64,000 nucleotides of DNA from Kaistia granuli DSM 23481 (lineage in GTDB: Bacteria; Pseudomonadota; Alphaproteobacteria; Rhizobiales; Kaistiaceae). Under the pieces are notes generated by a model. That model did not search any database. It was not told where the DNA came from and worked only from the letters and a program-made list of their open reading frames with translations. The stretch is taken from positions 372,001 to 436,000 of the forward strand of contig NZ_AQYH01000008.1 of the NCBI RefSeq assembly GCF_000380505.1, written 5' to 3'. Shown here in pieces: positions 36,539 through 45,163 of this stretch; positions within the stretch are counted from its first letter, which is position 1, and the number at the start of each line of letters is the position of its first letter. Position numbers and translations under genes: made by a program.

Positions 36539-36634
36539 GAAACAGAGCACTAGATATCCTGACCGCTTCCAGTAGAACCGGTCCGGATATCGACCATGCC
36601 TTTGCATGCCGATCCAGCAAATGGTGACAAGGCG

Positions 36635-37723
36635 ATGCTGCGGGCCTTCCTTCTTCTGGTGTCCGGCTTCTGGCTCGCGCTTGGCCCTGCTGCCACGGCC
36701 CTGGCCGAGGAGACCGCCCCGCCCGCGACGGCACGCGAACTGGTCATCGGCACCAAGCAGGCGCCACCCTTCGCCATCAAGGGCGCAGACGGTGTCTGGA
36801 CCGGCATCAGCATCGATCTCTGGCAGCGCATCGCCGACAAGCTCGACGTCAGATATCGCCTCGTCGAGGAGCCGACCGTCGAGGCGCTGATCGACGGCAC
36901 CGCGAGCGGCAAGTACGACGCCGCCGTCGCCGCCCTGACGATCACAGGTCCGCGCGCCGAGATCCTCGACTTCAGCCAGCCCTTCTATCGAACCGGCCTC
37001 GGCATCGCCGTGCCCTTCTCGGACGGATCGCGCTGGACGGTGATTCTGCGCTCCATGCTGTCGCTCGGATTTCTGCAAGCCGTCGGCGCGCTGATCGGCC
37101 TCGCGCTGCTGGTCGGCTTCCTGATCTGGGTATTCGAGCGCCGGCGCAACGAGCACTTCGGCGGCGCGCGCGGCATCGGCGCCTCGATCTGGTGGTCGGC
37201 CGAGGCGATGACACAGGCAAGCACCGGTGTGCATACGCCCATCACGCTCGCCGGCCGGTCGCTCGCCATTCTCTGGATGGCGGTATCGATCATCGCGATC
37301 GCCGTCTTCACGGCGGGCGTCACCTCGGCGCTGACGACGAGCGCGCTGCAAGGGCTGATCAGCAATCCGAACGATCTGGCCTCGGTTCGGGTCGGCGCGA
37401 TCTCGGACAGCTCGACCGTCGACTATCTCAACACCCAGCGCCTCAAATATACCGGCTTCCCCTCGGCCGAGGATGGCCTGAAAGCCCTGAAGGCCGGCGA
37501 GATCGATGCCTTCGTCTACGACAAGCCGCTGCTCGCCTGGATCGTCCTGCAACGCTATTCGTCGTCGATCCAGATGCTCGACCTGGTGTTCGACCCGCAG
37601 AACTACGGCATCGGCCTGCCGCTCGGCAGCCCGCTGCGCAAGAACATCGACGTCGCGCTGCTCGACAACGTTCATAGCGACTGGTGGAAGCAGACCCTGT
37701 TCAGCTATCTGGGCGAACGCTGA
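36635..37723 (+). CDS. Prokaryotic ionotropic glutamate receptor-like channel / transporter substrate-binding protein with pore insertion
   Basis: Predicted ligand-gated channel of 362 residues. After a signal peptide (LRAFLLLVSGFWLALG, cut near ALAEE) the first half of an amino-acid-binding domain has the ligand Arg in ITGPRAEILDFSQPF. The domain is then interrupted by a membrane module: a helix around residues 139-167, a re-entrant pore region with SIWWSAEAMTQASTGVHTP, and a helix around 209-234 with FTAGVTSALTTSAL (equivalent to the receptor SYTANLAAF region). The second binding half follows, with VYDKPLL providing the Asp. An ATG at 36596 is an alternative start. GluR0's TVGYGD filter is absent, so ion selectivity is uncertain. 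Confidence 0.82.
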   Translation: MLRAFLLLVSGFWLALGPAATALAEETAPPATARELVIGTKQAPPFAIKGADGVWTGISIDLWQRIADKLDVRYRLVEEPTVEALIDGTASGKYDAAVAALTITGPRAEILDFSQPFYRTGLGIAVPFSDGSRWTVILRSMLSLGFLQAVGALIGLALLVGFLIWVFERRRNEHFGGARGIGASIWWSAEAMTQASTGVHTPITLAGRSLAILWMAVSIIAIAVFTAGVTSALTTSALQGLISNPNDLASVRVGAISDSSTVDYLNTQRLKYTGFPSAEDGLKALKAGEIDAFVYDKPLLAWIVLQRYSSSIQMLDLVFDPQNYGIGLPLGSPLRKNIDVALLDNVHSDWWKQTLFSYLGER

Positions 37724-38871: not shown

Positions 38872-39534
38872 TTACTGGGCAGCGAAGCAATAGAGCAGCC
38901 CGGCACCGCCGGTGCCCTGCAGCGCTTCCTGCGAACAGCCGCCGCGCGACAGGTGCGACGAATTCCACGACTTCGCCGGCGCCGATTCATCGAGCCCCAC
39001 CCGGTCGTGGTGACCCACCATCGCCGCGCCCTCGGCGCCGCTCTTCGTCCAGTTGCCGCAGGTCTTGTCCTCGCCGGCCGGGAAGGCCGTGCCGTCCGGC
39101 TGCGTACCAGTCAGGATGTCATGCGTGTTCGGCTTGTCGCCGCGGCCATTCACCGGCACTCCGGTCTCGGTCAGCCCGGTCTCCTTGGTGAGATTGTTCT
39201 TGCCGTGCAGTTCCGCCACGTCCTTGGCAATGACGACGCCCTTGGCGTTCTGCCAGGGTCCCGCGCCGATACGGTCGCGCGCATTGACCGCCGGCGTGCC
39301 GTCGACAGCCTGGGTCGAGAGATAGGCGCGCCAGGTCTTGCCGCTTGCCCCGGCCTTCTCCGCCAGCGTCTGGCAAAGTTTGTCGGCGCCTTCGAGCCCG
39401 CCGAGATCGGCCCCCTTGCCCGAGCCGACGCTGGAAATGAAGAAGGTCATGCTGCCTTCCTGCGCGCTCGCGGCGCCGCCAAGCGCCATCAGCGCGACAG
39501 AAGCCACAAACGCCAGTGATCGTGCGGTCGTCAT
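38872..39534 (-). CDS. Secreted protein with an endostatin-like (C-type-lectin) fold
   Basis: Exported protein of 220 residues with a clear signal peptide (TTARSLAFVASVALMALGG, cut near ASAQE). The mature part parallels animal endostatin in order: GADKLCQTLAEKAG with a Cys, TWRAYLSTQ (endostatin TFRAFLSS), VNARDRIGAGPWQN (VNLKDELLFPSW), then ILTGTQPDGT (WHGSDPNGR), CGNWT (CETW), and a C-terminal GLLYCFA. Four cysteines occur in the mature chain, matching the two nested disulfides of endostatin. GAGGAGGG precedes the ATG at 39534. Ligand and role are unknown. Similarity is by motif order, judged by eye. Confidence 0.65.
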   Translation of the reverse strand: MTTARSLAFVASVALMALGGAASAQEGSMTFFISSVGSGKGADLGGLEGADKLCQTLAEKAGASGKTWRAYLSTQAVDGTPAVNARDRIGAGPWQNAKGVVIAKDVAELHGKNNLTKETGLTETGVPVNGRGDKPNTHDILTGTQPDGTAFPAGEDKTCGNWTKSGAEGAAMVGHHDRVGLDESAPAKSWNSSHLSRGGCSQEALQGTGGAGLLYCFAAQ

Positions 39535-39687: not shown

Positions 39688-41697
39688 TCAGAACGGCGCC
39701 TCGACGGAGCCGAGTTGGACGAAGACGCGCTTCAATCGGGTATAGGGCTCAAGCGTCGCCGCGAACGCCTCGCCCGCGATATCGACACCGAAGCCGGGAT
39801 GATTGATCCAGCAGGAGCCGGCATGGAGGCGCGCGACGACACGATTGCCGCGCGCCAGGTCTCGCGTGAAGACCGTGGCGGTCGGCCCGAACGGCCGCGC
39901 ATTGGCCCTGGCGATCCCATCGTCCTCATCCCGGAACGACAGCACCGTCGCCACCGGGCCGACGATCGCTTCGCGGACGACCGCCATTGTGTCGGTACAC
40001 TGGTCGAGGATCGTCGGCGCGACGAAAGCGCCCTTCGCCATCGCCCCGGCCACGATGCGATAGCCACCCGCCAGCACGCACACACCCGCCTCCCGGGCCT
40101 GCGCGATCTGGTCGAGCAGGCGCTCCAGATGCGCTTCCGAGATCAGCGCGCCGATCTGGGTGCGCGGATCGAGCGGGTCACCGACGATCAGGCGGCTGGC
40201 GCGGGCGACGAGCTTCTCGAGAAATGCGTCCCGCACGCTCTCCTGCACGAAGATCCGCGTTCCGCCCCAACCGGCCCGAGCGAAGCTGGCAAGCAGCGCC
40301 CCGGATACAGCATCGTCCAACTCCGCATCCTCGAAGACGAGCAGGGACGACTTGCCGTCCCCCTCAAATGTCCGGGGCTGCCCCGCGTCGGCCGACGGGA
40401 TCCGGATGATGCCGGGATGGCGGGCGAGAAGTCGCTCCGTCTCGGTTGCCCCGTGCACCACGTTGAAGACGCCGTCCGGCACACCCGCCTCGCTCAGGAT
40501 TTCGGCGAGCCTGGCCGCCGATAGCGGCGTCTGTTCGGAGGGTTTGAGGATCAGGGCGTTGCCGGCCGCGAGCGCCGGCGCGGCGTGGCCGCAAGCGCTC
40601 AGCAGGGGATGGCTCTCGTCGCCGATAGCGGCGAGAACGCCGAGCGGCTCGCGCCTCGTATAGCCGAACGCCTCCGCTCCGAGATCGACGGCCCCGTCCG
40701 TCGGTGCGCCGGCCAGCCCGGCGAAGTAGTCGATGCAGTCGGCGGCGGAGGCCGTTCCCGCCGTCTGCCGGATCGGCCTGCCCGTCTCGAGAGTTTCCAG
40801 CCGGGCGAGTTCATCGCTGCGCTCACGGAGCATTGCCGAGGCTCGCCGCAAGATCTGGCCGCGTGCGGCACCCGTCATCGCACCCCAGAGCCGCTGGCCC
40901 GCCTCGGCACTTGCAACGGCCGCGTCGATTTCCACCGCGTCCGCCAGCTCGATCTCGGCGATCGTTTCGCCGGTGGCGGGATCGATCATTGCGAAACGGC
41001 GGTCGTCGCCATTCGCGCGGGCGCGACCGCCGATGAAATTGCGGACGACCTTGCGGCCTTCGGGCCCAGGCAGGGCATCCGCCGCCGATGTCCGCGCGCG
41101 GATCGCGGCGAGCTGGGCATCGACGAAGGCCGTGGCGATGGCGCGCGCCTCGGCGCTCTCCGGCTCGCCCTCCGCCAACAGGGTCTCGCGCAGCCAAAGC
41201 CCGTCGATGACGGCGGCGATCGCCACCGCCGTCGACTGCGCCTCGCGCGCCGGCACCATCTGCTTCAGCCCATGGCGCAGATTGGAGAGCATCCGGCGCT
41301 GATAGACGTTCTGCACGCGTTTGAAGCGGGCGGAGTGGATGACCTGCCCCCAGAAGGCGAGCCAGACGCTGGCCGTGCGGCGATCGAATTCCTCGGGCGC
41401 CAGATTGGCGTCGATGACGGCTTGCACGCGCTCACGCGGCGACCGGGCCTCCGCCAGCCGGATCGAGACGATCCGGCTCAAACGGCCGGCCATGTAGCGC
41501 AAGGTCGCTTCGAGCAAGCCTTCCTTGTCCCCGAAGTAGTGCGCCACCAGTCCGGGCGACGCCCCGGCCCGGCGGCCGATATCCATCAGGGTACAGGCGG
41601 CAAAACCGACCTCGGCCAGCGATTCGATCGTCGCCTCGATCAGCTGTCGACGACGCAGATCCTCGACTTCGATCCGGACGGAACCTGCCTCGGCCAT
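39688..41697 (-). CDS. BetI-type TetR regulator fused to a catalytically dead BetB-like aldehyde dehydrogenase
   Basis: A single uninterrupted frame of 669 residues. Residues 1-198 are a BetI repressor: RRRQLIEATIESLAEVGF, HTH with GRRAGASPGLVAHYFGDKEG, then the BetI effector helices VWLAFWGQVIHSARFKR and VIDGLWLRETLL. After a short linker, residues 216-669 align with betaine aldehyde dehydrogenase BetB (TRREPLGVLAAIGD, APALAAGNALILKPSE, FEDAELDDAV). Key catalytic features are gone: WNYP is ESHP (Asn to Ser at 362), GQVCTNGT is GWGGT (no Cys near 477), the FTG-GS-loop before FEGDGKS is shortened, EEIFGP is EAIVGP, and the GGYKHSGIGRE motif is deleted. ATG at 41697 follows AGAGGA. Divergent from choXWV. 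Regulatory use of the dead enzyme is inference. Confidence 0.9.
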   Translation of the reverse strand: MAEAGSVRIEVEDLRRRQLIEATIESLAEVGFAACTLMDIGRRAGASPGLVAHYFGDKEGLLEATLRYMAGRLSRIVSIRLAEARSPRERVQAVIDANLAPEEFDRRTASVWLAFWGQVIHSARFKRVQNVYQRRMLSNLRHGLKQMVPAREAQSTAVAIAAVIDGLWLRETLLAEGEPESAEARAIATAFVDAQLAAIRARTSAADALPGPEGRKVVRNFIGGRARANGDDRRFAMIDPATGETIAEIELADAVEIDAAVASAEAGQRLWGAMTGAARGQILRRASAMLRERSDELARLETLETGRPIRQTAGTASAADCIDYFAGLAGAPTDGAVDLGAEAFGYTRREPLGVLAAIGDESHPLLSACGHAAPALAAGNALILKPSEQTPLSAARLAEILSEAGVPDGVFNVVHGATETERLLARHPGIIRIPSADAGQPRTFEGDGKSSLLVFEDAELDDAVSGALLASFARAGWGGTRIFVQESVRDAFLEKLVARASRLIVGDPLDPRTQIGALISEAHLERLLDQIAQAREAGVCVLAGGYRIVAGAMAKGAFVAPTILDQCTDTMAVVREAIVGPVATVLSFRDEDDGIARANARPFGPTATVFTRDLARGNRVVARLHAGSCWINHPGFGVDIAGEAFAATLEPYTRLKRVFVQLGSVEAPF

Positions 41698-41740: not shown

Positions 41741-41758
41741 TGATTGAACGGCCAATCA
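41741..41758. promoter_or_regulatory. BetI-like operator 1
   Basis: TGATTGAACGGCCAATCA is an inverted repeat (TGATTG / CAATCA, six-base centre) 43 bases upstream of the fusion gene's ATG. It shares GATTGAACG with site 2, consistent with ATTGAA-type boxes of BetI repressors. Binding by the fusion protein is inferred; the likely effect is autorepression. Confidence 0.6.
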
Positions 41759-41851
41759 AAGCACGGACCGCTTCCCTCTACTCCCTCCGTTGGAGCAGAC
41801 ATCTCAAGTCGATATCGTCATTCAAATCGCGCAAATCCGCTGACAATCAGG

Positions 41852-41869
41852 ATTGAACGCCCATTCAAT
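41852..41869. promoter_or_regulatory. BetI-like operator 2
   Basis: ATTGAACGCCCATTCAAT is an inverted repeat of ATTGAA / TTCAAT with a six-base centre. It lies about 180 bases upstream of choX and 155 upstream of the fusion gene, and shares the GATTGAACG core with site 1. This makes co-regulation of the divergent choline operon plausible. Confidence 0.62.
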
Positions 41870-42049: not shown

Positions 42050-43000
42050 ATGCTGAATTCGGTAGTGTCGAAGTCACTGGCCGCCATGACGTGCGTTCTG
42101 GCGCTCGCGGGAACCGCCTCGGCGGCGGAACCTGCCAGCTGCAAGTCCGTGCGCTTTTCCGACGTCGGCTGGACCGATATCTCGGCGACAACGGGCCTGA
42201 CCTCGCGCATTCTGACCGGCCTTGGCTACGAGCCGAAGCTGCAGGTGCTGTCGGTGCCGGTCACCTACGCCTCGCTGAAGAACAAGGATATCGACGTCTA
42301 TCTCGGCAATTGGCTGCCCTCGATGGCTGCCGACCTCCAGCCCTATCTCGACGACGGCTCGGTCGAGGTCGTCGGCGTCAATCTGGAAGGCGCCAAATAC
42401 ACGCTCGCTGTGCCGGCCTATCTGTTCGACGAAGGCCTCAAGACCTTCGCCGACATCGCCAAGTTCAAGGACAAGCTCGACGGCAAGCTCTACGGCATTG
42501 AGCCGGGCAATGACGGCAATCGGCTGATCCTCGACATGATCAAGGCCGACAAGTTCGGCCTCGGCTCGTTCGAGCTGGTCGAATCGAGCGAACAGGGCAT
42601 GCTCGCCCAGGTCGACCGCGCCGGCCGCAAGAAGGACGCGATCGTGTTCCTCGGCTGGGCGCCGCACCCGATGAACGAGAAGTTCGCCATGCAGTATCTC
42701 GATGGCGGCGACGAGGTGTTCGGCCCGAATTTCGGCGGCGCCACCGTCTCGACCAGCGTGCGCAAGGGCTATCTCGAAGAGTGCCCGAATGTCGGCGCGC
42801 TGATCAAGAACATGAAGTTCACCCTGCCGATCGAGGGCCAGGTGATGTCGAGCATCCTCGACGACGGCAAGGAGCCGATCGCCGCCGCCGAAGCCTGGCT
42901 GAAGGCCAATCCGTCCCAGCTCGACGCCTGGCTCGCCGGCGTAAACACGATCGACGGCCAGCCCGGCCTCGCCGCCGTGAAGCAGAGCCTCGGTCTCTGA
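42050..43000 (+). CDS. choX: Choline ABC transporter substrate-binding protein
   Basis: Periplasmic choline receptor of 316 residues (OpuAC fold). A signal peptide (SLAAMTCVLALAGTASA) is followed by SCKSVRFSDVGWTDISATTGL, then VYLGNWLPSM, GIEPGNDGNRLILDM and FLGWAPHPMN. These Trp/Tyr-containing segments are the aromatic box residues conserved in ChoX of Sinorhizobium and relatives. It heads choX-choW-choV and is divergent from the BetI-ALDH regulator. GGGAG lies upstream of the ATG. Choline is the expected ligand; acetylcholine or betaine are possible. Confidence 0.93.
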   Translation: MLNSVVSKSLAAMTCVLALAGTASAAEPASCKSVRFSDVGWTDISATTGLTSRILTGLGYEPKLQVLSVPVTYASLKNKDIDVYLGNWLPSMAADLQPYLDDGSVEVVGVNLEGAKYTLAVPAYLFDEGLKTFADIAKFKDKLDGKLYGIEPGNDGNRLILDMIKADKFGLGSFELVESSEQGMLAQVDRAGRKKDAIVFLGWAPHPMNEKFAMQYLDGGDEVFGPNFGGATVSTSVRKGYLEECPNVGALIKNMKFTLPIEGQVMSSILDDGKEPIAAAEAWLKANPSQLDAWLAGVNTIDGQPGLAAVKQSLGL

Positions 43001-43131: not shown

Positions 43132-43983
43132 ATGTATAGCTGGCTGACCGAGCACAAAATCCCGCTCGGATCCTGGATCAAGAGCTTCGTCGACTTCCTG
43201 AACCAGCACGCGCAATGGCTGTTCGACTGGATTTCACTTGTCCTCGGCACGCTGATCGAAGGGCTGACGGATCTGCTGCTGGCGGTGCCGCCGCTGCTTC
43301 TGATCGCGATCTTCGCGGGCATCGCCTATGGGCTGCACCGCTCGTTCAGGCTCGCGGCCTTCACCGCCATCGCCTTCCTGCTGGTCATCAATCTCGGCTA
43401 TTGGCAGCCGACGATCGAGACGCTCGCGCTGGTGATCTGGGCGACGCTCGTCTGCGTCGTCGTCGGTGTGCCGATCGGTATCGCCGCCGCGCACCGGCCC
43501 TGGCTCTATGCCGGCATCCGCCCCGCTCTCGACCTGATGCAGACGATTCCGACCTTCGTCTATCTGATCCCGACGCTCGTGCTGTTCGGCCTTGGCACCG
43601 TGCCCGGCCTGATCTCGACGGTGATCTTCGCCATCCCCGCCCCGATCCGGCTCACCCATCTCGGCATCACCTCGGTGCCGGCCCAGTTGCGAGAGGCAGG
43701 CCAGGCCTTCGGCGCCACCAAGCGGCAGCTGCTCTACAAGGTCGAGCTGCCGCACGCGATGCCGACGATCATGGCCGGCATCACCCAGTGCATCATGTTG
43801 TCGCTTTCGATGGTGGTGATCGCGGCTCTGGTTGGCGCCGACGGGCTCGGCAAGCCGGTCGTCCGCGCGCTGAATTCCGTCAATATCGGCATGGGCTTCG
43901 AGGCAGGCGCGGCGATCGTGTTGCTCGCCATCGTGCTCGACCGGGTCTGCAAGCGCCCCGAACGCAGGAAGGGAGCGCGCTGA
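43132..43983 (+). CDS. choW: Choline ABC transporter permease
   Basis: Inner-membrane permease of 283 residues. The cytoplasmic N-terminus (YSWLTEHKIPLGSWIKSFVDFLNQHA) matches ChoW/ProW proteins, followed by about six helices. The EAA loop is LREAGQAFGATKRQLLYKVELPHAMP. LDLMQTIPTFVYLIPTLVLFGLG is the classic ProW/OpuAB helix. It is one base from choV, so translation is coupled. Confidence 0.94.
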   Translation: MYSWLTEHKIPLGSWIKSFVDFLNQHAQWLFDWISLVLGTLIEGLTDLLLAVPPLLLIAIFAGIAYGLHRSFRLAAFTAIAFLLVINLGYWQPTIETLALVIWATLVCVVVGVPIGIAAAHRPWLYAGIRPALDLMQTIPTFVYLIPTLVLFGLGTVPGLISTVIFAIPAPIRLTHLGITSVPAQLREAGQAFGATKRQLLYKVELPHAMPTIMAGITQCIMLSLSMVVIAALVGADGLGKPVVRALNSVNIGMGFEAGAAIVLLAIVLDRVCKRPERRKGAR

Positions 43984-43984
43984 C

Positions 43985-45163
43985 ATGCCGGCCATCCAGT
44001 TCAACAAGGTCGACATCGTCTTCGGCGACCGCCGCGGCAAGGCACCAGCGCTGATCGACCAGGGCAAGACACGCGACGAGATCCTGGCTGCGACCGGCGC
44101 CGTCCTCGGCGCGGCCGGCATCGACCTGACCGTCGAGCGCGGCGAGATCTGCGTGCTGATGGGACTCTCGGGCTCCGGCAAGTCGACGGTGCTGCGCGCC
44201 GTCAATGGGCTGAACGAAGTCGCGCGCGGCAGCGTGCTCGTCTCGCATGACGGCGCCGCCGTCGATGTCACACATTGCGACGACGCCACGCTGCGCGAGA
44301 TCCGCATGCGCACCGTCTCGATGGTGTTCCAGCAATTCGGCCTGCTGCCCTGGCGCTCGGTACGCGAGAATGTCGGCTTCGGGCTGGAAATCCGCGGCAT
44401 GCCGGCTGCCGAACGCCGGCGGATCGTCGACGAGAAGCTCGCCATGGTCGGGCTCTCGCAATGGGCCGACAAGCATGCGCAGGAGCTTTCCGGCGGCATG
44501 CAGCAGCGCGTCGGCCTGGCGCGGGCTTTCGCCACCGATGCCGAGATCCTGCTGATGGACGAGCCGTTCTCGGCGCTGGACCCGCTGATCCGCGACAAGA
44601 TGCAGGACGAACTGCTCGACCTGCAGCGCCGCATCCAGAAGACCATCCTCTTCGTCAGCCACGACCTCGACGAGGCGATGAAGATCGGCAGCAAGATCGC
44701 CATCATGGAGGCGGGCTGCATCGTCCAGTGCGGCACGGCGGAGGACATATTGCTCCGCCCGGCGACGCCCTATGTCGCGGAATTCGTCAAGCATACCAAT
44801 CCCTTGAACGTGCTGCGCGGCCACTCGGTGATGACGCCCGCCTGCTCGGTCCGGCGGAGCGACGGCACGGTCCTGCTCGATCGCGACGGGCTGGTGCGCA
44901 TGCGCGTCGACGCCGGCGACCGCCCGGTCGGCGTCGAGGTGAACGGCCGCGAGGGCAGCCTTGGCCGCGTCAACGGCAATGCCGGCGCCTTCGACACGCC
45001 CTGCGATATCATCGTGGCGCCGGTCGAGCTGAAGCTCGCCACGACGATCGCGCTGAAGCGCAAGACCGACCATCCGATCATCTTCGTCGATGCGGACGGC
45101 AAGCTGGCCGGCCTCTGCGGCGACGACGAGATCTATGGCAGCCTGCTCCGCCGCAGCGCCTAA
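43985..45163 (+). CDS. choV: Choline ABC transporter ATP-binding protein
   Basis: ATPase of the choline importer, 392 residues. Walker A is GLSGSGKST, Q-loop FQQFGLLPWRSV, signature LSGGMQQRVGLARA and Walker B LLMDEPFSALD. The insertion before Walker A (GKAPALIDQGKTRDEILAATG) is typical of the ChoV subfamily. After residue 270 a C-terminal extension occurs in place of tandem CBS domains, beginning FVKHTNPLNVLRGHSVM. It ends three bases before the convergent M24 peptidase gene. Confidence 0.94.
   Translation: MPAIQFNKVDIVFGDRRGKAPALIDQGKTRDEILAATGAVLGAAGIDLTVERGEICVLMGLSGSGKSTVLRAVNGLNEVARGSVLVSHDGAAVDVTHCDDATLREIRMRTVSMVFQQFGLLPWRSVRENVGFGLEIRGMPAAERRRIVDEKLAMVGLSQWADKHAQELSGGMQQRVGLARAFATDAEILLMDEPFSALDPLIRDKMQDELLDLQRRIQKTILFVSHDLDEAMKIGSKIAIMEAGCIVQCGTAEDILLRPATPYVAEFVKHTNPLNVLRGHSVMTPACSVRRSDGTVLLDRDGLVRMRVDAGDRPVGVEVNGREGSLGRVNGNAGAFDTPCDIIVAPVELKLATTIALKRKTDHPIIFVDADGKLAGLCGDDEIYGSLLRRSA

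Follow-up and report, generated by a model that had tools for sequence, protein, structure and literature searches.

The window analysed here, a 64,000-nucleotide stretch of the genome of Kaistia granuli DSM 23481, carries on its minus strand a single open reading frame of 669 amino acids, with its ATG at 41697 and its stop codon at 39688-39690. The frame joins a BetI repressor to a domain derived from betaine aldehyde dehydrogenase (BADH) and is divided as follows.

39688..41697, minus strand: BetI-BADH fusion frame, 669 aa, stop included (ORF listing and profile scans)
41104..41697, minus strand: BetI part, residues 1-198, a TetR HTH and a BetI-type C-terminal domain (profiles; omega 0.05-0.08 in the degenerate clade)
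41053..41103, minus strand: linker, residues 199-215 (a gap in the Pfam matches, with low pLDDT at 205-214)
39691..41052, minus strand: BADH-derived domain, residues 216-669, catalytic residues gone and scaffold kept (profiles, alignment and codon model)

The Pfam scan of the window protein returned TetR_N (residues 19-64), TetR_C_6 of the BetI type (87-196) and Aldedh (231-634) only, and a proline dehydrogenase domain was absent from it. Residues 8-198 form the stretch that scored above the cut-offs of both curated NCBIfam models for BetI (TIGR03384, 209.3 versus 201.3 bits; NF001978, 199 versus 118). The cut-offs of the BADH models were missed (NF009725, 467.2 versus 593; TIGR01804, 394.4 versus 668.6), and the ALDH part aligned over almost its full length with solved BADHs (PDB 2wme and 6wsa, cited for BetB). 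An earlier note on this DNA had claimed a single BetI-BADH frame at 39688-41697 and the BetI identity of residues 1-198, and both claims were borne out by the coordinates and the profile matches.

Four changes in the BADH-derived domain were placed on the DNA.

40612..40614, minus strand: Ser362, which replaces the catalytic (oxyanion) Asn (alignment; Ser at the clade ancestor of three degenerate species, posterior 0.92)
40396..40401, minus strand: junction P433/S434, site of a deletion that removes most of the NAD loop (alignment; a strand and a helix of the intact AF2 control are unformed in the window model)
40267..40272, minus strand: junction G476/W477, where the catalytic Cys and its neighbours are deleted (alignment)
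39967..39969, minus strand: Ala577 at the position of the second Glu of EEIFGP (alignment)

In the alignment, EEIFGP has become EAIVGP in the window copy, the Cys loop is shortened and lacks its Cys, and the C-terminal GGxKxSG stretch is deleted. The earlier note held that every catalytic feature is altered. This is so for the Asn, the Cys, the NAD loop, EEIFGP and GGxKxSG, but the window copy retains both its general-base Glu (E445, in TFEGDGKS) and its NAD-site Lys (K385), each of which is lost in some degenerate congeners. Together, the alignment and profile results confirm that the window protein is, by sequence, a BetI repressor with a BADH whose active site is ruined. The aromatic box, whose positions for the trimethylammonium group we take to be those of the spinach enzyme, reads YWYF in intact congeners and HGAG in the window copy, and ARGL, RLRA and DSL- are found in the other degenerate species.

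Twenty catalytic, NAD and aromatic-box positions were chosen from the BADH literature, and 18 of them were invariant in 16 intact rows. The window copy (G000) and its congeners G001 and G008 each keep two of these 18 positions and G010 keeps none, versus 164, 110, 156 and 142, respectively, of the 229 other invariant positions (48-72%). Functional sites were lost in excess of other invariant positions (Fisher p 0.002 to 8e-8), a comparison in which the NAD-loop stretch carries much weight among the 18. All four degenerate species have 79 of the 247 invariant positions in common. The replacements at the old sites differ from species to species, and no shared new pocket is visible. As judged from these alignments, the scaffold is retained in the degenerate clade and catalytic function is not.

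The AF2 models were of moderate confidence, both for the window protein (pLDDT 78.7, pTM 0.58) and for an intact control, L009 (82.8 and 0.65). The control model has a strand (435-440) and a helix (442-454) in the NAD domain that the window model does not form. When the window model was compared with solved structures, the best matches were BADHs, 6bjp first, with TM-scores by target length of 0.78-0.87. Low confidence at the hairpin, the Cys loop and the C-terminus was considered as a sign of damage and rejected, since the intact control is low there too. Other low-confidence stretches are common to both models and silent on damage.

Upstream of the fusion, on the opposite strand, lie the choline transport genes, with two palindromes between.

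41743..41760, plus strand: BetI-box-like palindrome 1, proximal to the fusion, ATTGAACGGCCAATCAAA (palindrome scan, shuffles)
41852..41869, plus strand: BetI-box-like palindrome 2, proximal to choX, ATTGAACGCCCATTCAAT (palindrome scan, shuffles)
42050..43000, plus strand: choX, choline ABC transporter substrate-binding protein (over the TIGR03414 cut-off)
43132..43983, plus strand: choW, permease (over the TIGR03416 cut-off)
43985..45163, plus strand: choV, ATPase (over the TIGR03415 cut-off)

All three genes exceeded curated cut-offs, and the divergent placement from choXWV that had been claimed holds. The palindromes were compared with the BetI box ATTGACG*CGTCAAT given in the accessible text of PMC12442346. 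Two sites matching at 13/16 or better were predicted in the intergenic region, and such a pair never appeared in 2000 Markov shuffles per genome. The pair lies 109-111 bp apart in all six genus members checked, whether degenerate or intact. Outside these, the spacing was 146 in G019, a member of the same family, and 90 in G020, and G025 has a single box; fixed operator spacing as proof of tetramer bridging was dropped for this reason. At a looser threshold of 12/16, applied without shuffles to 25 other fused loci, 15 had at least two sites, eight had one and two had none, with varied spacing. The simplest view is one predicted box per divergent promoter.

Several other genes were noted in the course of this work. 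A gene at 38872-39534 (minus strand) adjoins the degenerate fusion in all four degenerate species; its only match, to DUF1554, is below threshold, and we read it as lectin-like and of another family than betA. At 36596-37723 (plus strand) of the window, SBP_bac_3, Lig_chan and Lig_chan-Glu_bd matches describe, by domains, a glutamate-receptor-like channel. Elsewhere in the window genome (contig C17, 43246-45411; L090, L105) an 838-aa frame contains two ALDH matches in tandem, an arrangement known from the two-domain ALDH16, and frames of comparable length with an ALDH match occur in several congeners. The window genome has three CDP-alcohol transferases. Of the two that were scanned, one exceeded the PssA cut-off, the other fell below the cut-offs of two inositol-phosphate-type families, and neither was named phosphatidylcholine synthase; phosphatidylcholine synthesis as a choline sink was dropped on this ground. 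G006, a congener without the fusion, has a fourth CDP-alcohol phosphatidyltransferase match (274621-275070 on C1, L208) in a 264-aa frame, and the other six genomes searched have three each. Choline may be oxidised by a GMC paralogue, the best of which in the window genome is 44% identical to betA.

Fusions in other genomes and the probable order of loss

A scan of the genome collection matched at least 597 stretches, of which the best 80 loci were taken. Together with searches at the level of genus, family and order, it supplied the 43 single-frame BetI-ALDH rows that were read. These include three identical pairs (L010/L146, L012/L174 and L017/L177) and so represent 40 distinct fusions, the window included. 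Outside this count are L031, L033, L034, L035 and L036 (frame-split or cut), the likewise cut and unread L061, loci in which betI and betB are separate, and loci with an ALDH that has no adjoining BetI part.

Among the loci listed, all six residues checked (N, K, E, C, E and F) are intact in 37 of the 40 distinct fusions (40 of the 43 rows), and the three that are not intact are the window and its congeners G010 and G001. A fourth degenerate congener, G008 (L145), is cut by the contig end, is degenerate in the part seen and stands outside the 43 rows. The question whether the homologues have all lost the Cys and the Asn, raised in the earlier note, is answered in the negative by these counts. 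The same single frame in 40 distinct proteins also rules out a sequencing or assembly join of two genes, which that note had named as a possible refutation.

Intact fusions were found in Azorhizobium, Ancylobacter, Aureimonas, Methylobrevis, Faunimonas, Gluconacetobacter, gammaproteobacterial MAGs and the congeners G004, G005 and G013. In the intact loci L140, L142, L146-L148, L009-L030, L032, L037 and L039, which range from Hyphomicrobiales to the gammaproteobacterial MAGs, betA mostly comes next and choXWV is mostly divergent. Where 25 fused loci were checked, betA was downstream of the fusion in 24, the exception being a locus that ends just past the fusion, and choX was upstream on the opposite strand in 20. 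In an even draw of 397 genomes across the order, 17 had a full-length, stop-free, single-frame match, and five of these genomes (G000, G001, G004, G005 and G010) belong to the same genus as the window. Read from these sequences, the BetI-BADH fusion is old and usually intact.

Within the genus, seven of 14 genomes carry the fusion, which is intact in G004, G005 and G013 and degenerate in G000 (the window), G010, G001 and the contig-cut G008. choX is present in six of the 14, namely all fusion carriers but G008. A BADH over the cut-off was found in the genus only in G004, G005 and G013, and a betA over the cut-off only in G004 and G005; the best betA relatives elsewhere in the genus are at most 48% identical, and betA is missing from all four degenerate species. 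Gene maps place betA after the fusion in G004, G005, G019, G020 and G025, and not in G013 or the degenerate species. In G013 (L141) the fusion is intact and no betA reaches the family cut-off, the best relative being 48% identical; G013 is possibly an intermediate stage or a species whose BADH has another source of aldehyde.

In a tree of the BetI part, the three degenerate rows that include this part form one group (95/91), with G013 beside it (92/90), followed by G004 and G005. The ALDH-part tree was dropped for the branching order inside the clade, where long branches meet: its branches measure 0.78-5.7, versus 0.07-0.21 for the tips of the BetI part, and the longest (5.7) belongs to the very divergent domain of G001, which is difficult to recognise in places in the alignment. 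The simplest order of loss is betA first and BADH activity second; alternatively, betA may have been lost separately in different lineages.

Reconstruction at the ancestor of three degenerate species (node C) placed Ser already at the position of the catalytic Asn (0.92), and the Glu and Phe of EEIFGP had probably changed to Ala and Val (0.83 each). The Cys (0.78), Lys (0.97) and Glu (0.99) had probably survived to that point. Thus the loss of function would have begun before the clade radiated and been finished later, and some of the constraint measured on later branches may date from before catalysis was fully lost.

Selection on the BADH-derived domain

Selection was estimated with a Muse-Gaut-type codon model on nine taxa and 196 BetI and 387 ALDH codons, G008 being outside the models. 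For the ALDH part alone, omega (dN/dS) was 0.10 on the background, 0.30 on the stem and 0.205 on the degenerate branches, and setting omega to 1 cost 2dlnL 191.8; the BetI part alone gave 0.08. With branch lengths shared with the BetI part, omega was 0.26-0.27 for the ALDH part versus 0.055-0.059 for the BetI part (2dlnL 235.3 against 1). Alignment margins of 0, 2 and 5 columns and three topologies gave 0.246-0.284, with 2dlnL of 190-203. Overall, the dead domain evolved at an omega of 0.20-0.28, versus 0.08-0.10 on the background, and 1 was rejected (2dlnL 190-235). The dN/dS over the ALDH part, an estimate suggested in the earlier note, is not near 1.

Each of the terminal branches rejects an omega of 1, with 0.147 for G000 (2dlnL 55.9), 0.324 for G001 (47.3) and 0.305 for G010 (8.1). 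On the internal branches, with 0.443 for stem C and 0.352 for D, an omega of 1 was not rejected (2dlnL 2.9 and 1.1). The constraint is diffuse, with block omegas of 0.21-0.38, and no interface stands out. A saturation artefact was addressed by simulation and rejected. Four runs simulated at an omega of 0.26 were refit at 0.23-0.30, and four neutral runs at 1.03-11.3; the neutral refits were unstable upwards, partly near the search bound and never below 1, and show solely that the estimate stays at least 1.

In the three complete degenerate genes, and in what is seen of G008, the frame runs on without truncation. The earlier note took the open frame as an argument for selection. This GC-rich window has spurious antisense frames of up to 1015 aa, and the neutral probability of meeting no stop per lineage is 0.07-0.14 with third-position composition and 1e-4 to 5e-4 with mean composition. 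With such long spurious frames and so high a neutral probability, the open frame alone is weak evidence and the case rests on dN/dS; the selection itself stands, as the codon model rejects an omega of 1. Whole-codon indels (33 segments versus G013) were dropped as separate proof, since indels of any other kind could not appear between aligned open frames. The features of a pseudogene, a dN/dS near 1 and a broken frame, were not found in the fusion, and by sequence the domain has those of a pseudoenzyme, being the homologue of an enzyme, without catalytic residues and under selection. These results support the view that the dead BADH domain is a pseudoenzyme under purifying selection.

Relation to known systems and the possible role of the dead domain

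The window protein resembles BetI (TIGR03384, NF001978) in its curated scores, the BetI-type palindromes and the adjoining choline transport genes, and differs from it in bearing a C-terminal domain of 450 aa. The accessible text of PMC12442346 mentions no such tail; the word "fused" does not occur there, and "fusion" occurs twice, in a methods passage on fusion PCR. The domain resembles BetB (NF009725, TIGR01804) in its near end-to-end alignment and predicted BADH-like fold, but it scores below the cut-offs, has lost the Asn, Cys, NAD loop, aromatic box and C-terminal motif, and is fused to a repressor. The intact BetI-BADH fusions are direct relatives with the same architecture and largely the same neighbourhood, but their six checked active-site residues are present and betA comes next in 24 of the 25 loci checked, and not in G013. 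A title and abstract search of the open-access literature, a scope that most subscription journals fall outside, found no paper on a BetI-BADH fusion, and the intact fusion seems undescribed. Automatic databases may name such fusions.

PutA, whose DNA-binding domain is a ribbon-helix-helix, differs in its proline dehydrogenase, in a type of DNA-binding domain not found in the window protein and in its active main ALDH. In likeness to the window protein, PutA as excerpted in PMC9132996 unites a DNA-binding regulator and an ALDH-containing enzyme in one protein. According to excerpts of PMC13155685, PutA also has a separate, non-catalytic domain of the ALDH superfamily that is thought to be structural and to help hold the geometry of the enzyme. 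By analogy, this domain would be the nearest precedent for a structural job, and the whole of PutA that for a regulator which is also an ALDH enzyme. Human ALDH16A1 is likewise an ALDH homologue without catalytic residues that is kept for other roles (PMC10650815, in the text accessible), but it has no TetR repressor fused to it and its roles are unrelated.

On balance, we lean towards a history in which betA was lost first, the BetI part does the sensing of choline, and the dead BADH serves as a structural module that the repressor still needs. The ancestor would have been a bifunctional repressor-enzyme that united BetI with an active BADH and headed a betIB-betA operon, with choXWV divergent from it. 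Once betA was lost in the window's clade, betaine aldehyde was presumably no longer made, so that BADH catalysis would have become dispensable and the catalytic, NAD and substrate sites would have been erased, from the Asn to Ser change before the radiation onwards and then separately in each lineage. The remaining BADH fold would be kept as a non-catalytic module, most likely for the folding, stability or oligomer assembly of the repressor. With choline sensed in its BetI domain, the fusion would repress choXWV and itself through the two BetI boxes. Counted against a structural job are the diffuse constraint, in which no interface stands out, branches C and D, which do not reject an omega of 1, and the BetI proteins that regulate choline genes with no enzyme tail mentioned in the accessible text of PMC12442346. 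Further difficulties are the great divergence of the G001 domain, the moderate confidence of the AF2 models and the import of choline in genomes that lack betA.

In a rival reading that we regard as doubtful and yet serious, the BADH part has no job, lingers because its breakage would destabilise or misfold the repressor or because the loss of catalysis is recent, and will eventually be lost. Its fast evolution and large deletions (ALDH branches 0.78-5.7 versus BetI tips 0.07-0.21), the diffuse constraint, the partly unrecognisable domain of G001 and the two internal branches all fit such decay. That Cys, Lys and Glu had probably not yet been lost in the clade ancestor led us to rate this decay higher and the structural module lower. 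Against decay stand the lack of truncation in the three complete degenerate genes and the part of G008 seen, an omega far below 1 on three terminal branches, and 79 of 247 invariant positions kept in all four species.

Signalling from the dead BADH to the HTH appears improbable to us, whether the ligand be choline, betaine aldehyde, betaine or NAD(H), as the earlier note had suggested, or a new one in a remodelled pocket. The divergent choXWV and the retained scaffold would suit a ligand sensor, and the regulatory activity of PutA is altered by proline, FAD and NAD+ (PMC9132996, as excerpted). However, the aromatic box, NAD loop and catalytic residues are lost in all four degenerate species, with replacements that differ and no common new pocket, and the BetI part is under the stronger constraint. 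Since the old sites were erased, sensing through them is unsupported; there may be a sensor that uses another pocket, and the ligand domain of BetI, which is intact, can explain the sensing of choline. That the ALDH part has kept or gained an enzymatic activity is more improbable still: E445 and K385 remain in the window copy, but there is no Cys and no Asn, the NAD-domain strand and helix are unformed in the predicted model, and the Glu and Lys are lost in some degenerate congeners. As for an artefact, whether a sequencing or assembly join or a chance open frame, GC-rich DNA does hold many long spurious frames, but the homologues refute it almost completely: the fusion recurs in 40 distinct proteins and is degenerate in four congeners (window included), and there is selection at the codon level.

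A single genus spans intact fusions with betA (G004, G005), an intact fusion without it (G013) and fusions that are dead but selected (G000, G010, G001 and, as far as seen, G008). With this ordered series one can ask what keeps a dead enzyme domain in place. Most pseudoenzymes are encountered when their origin lies far back, and here the passage from an enzyme to a non-catalytic part of a regulator is unusually clear. The intact fusion is itself worth study, as a possible PutA-like enzyme that regulates its own operon. More tentatively, the pseudo-ALDH might represent a novel class of transcription-factor domain that arose when an enzyme-repressor fusion lost its catalytic function. Its regulatory job would then be to assemble repressor dimers on the two operators, for instance, or to sense a ligand that has no relation to betaine aldehyde. 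If this is true, the active and intermediate stages of its origin would still be alive in the same genus.
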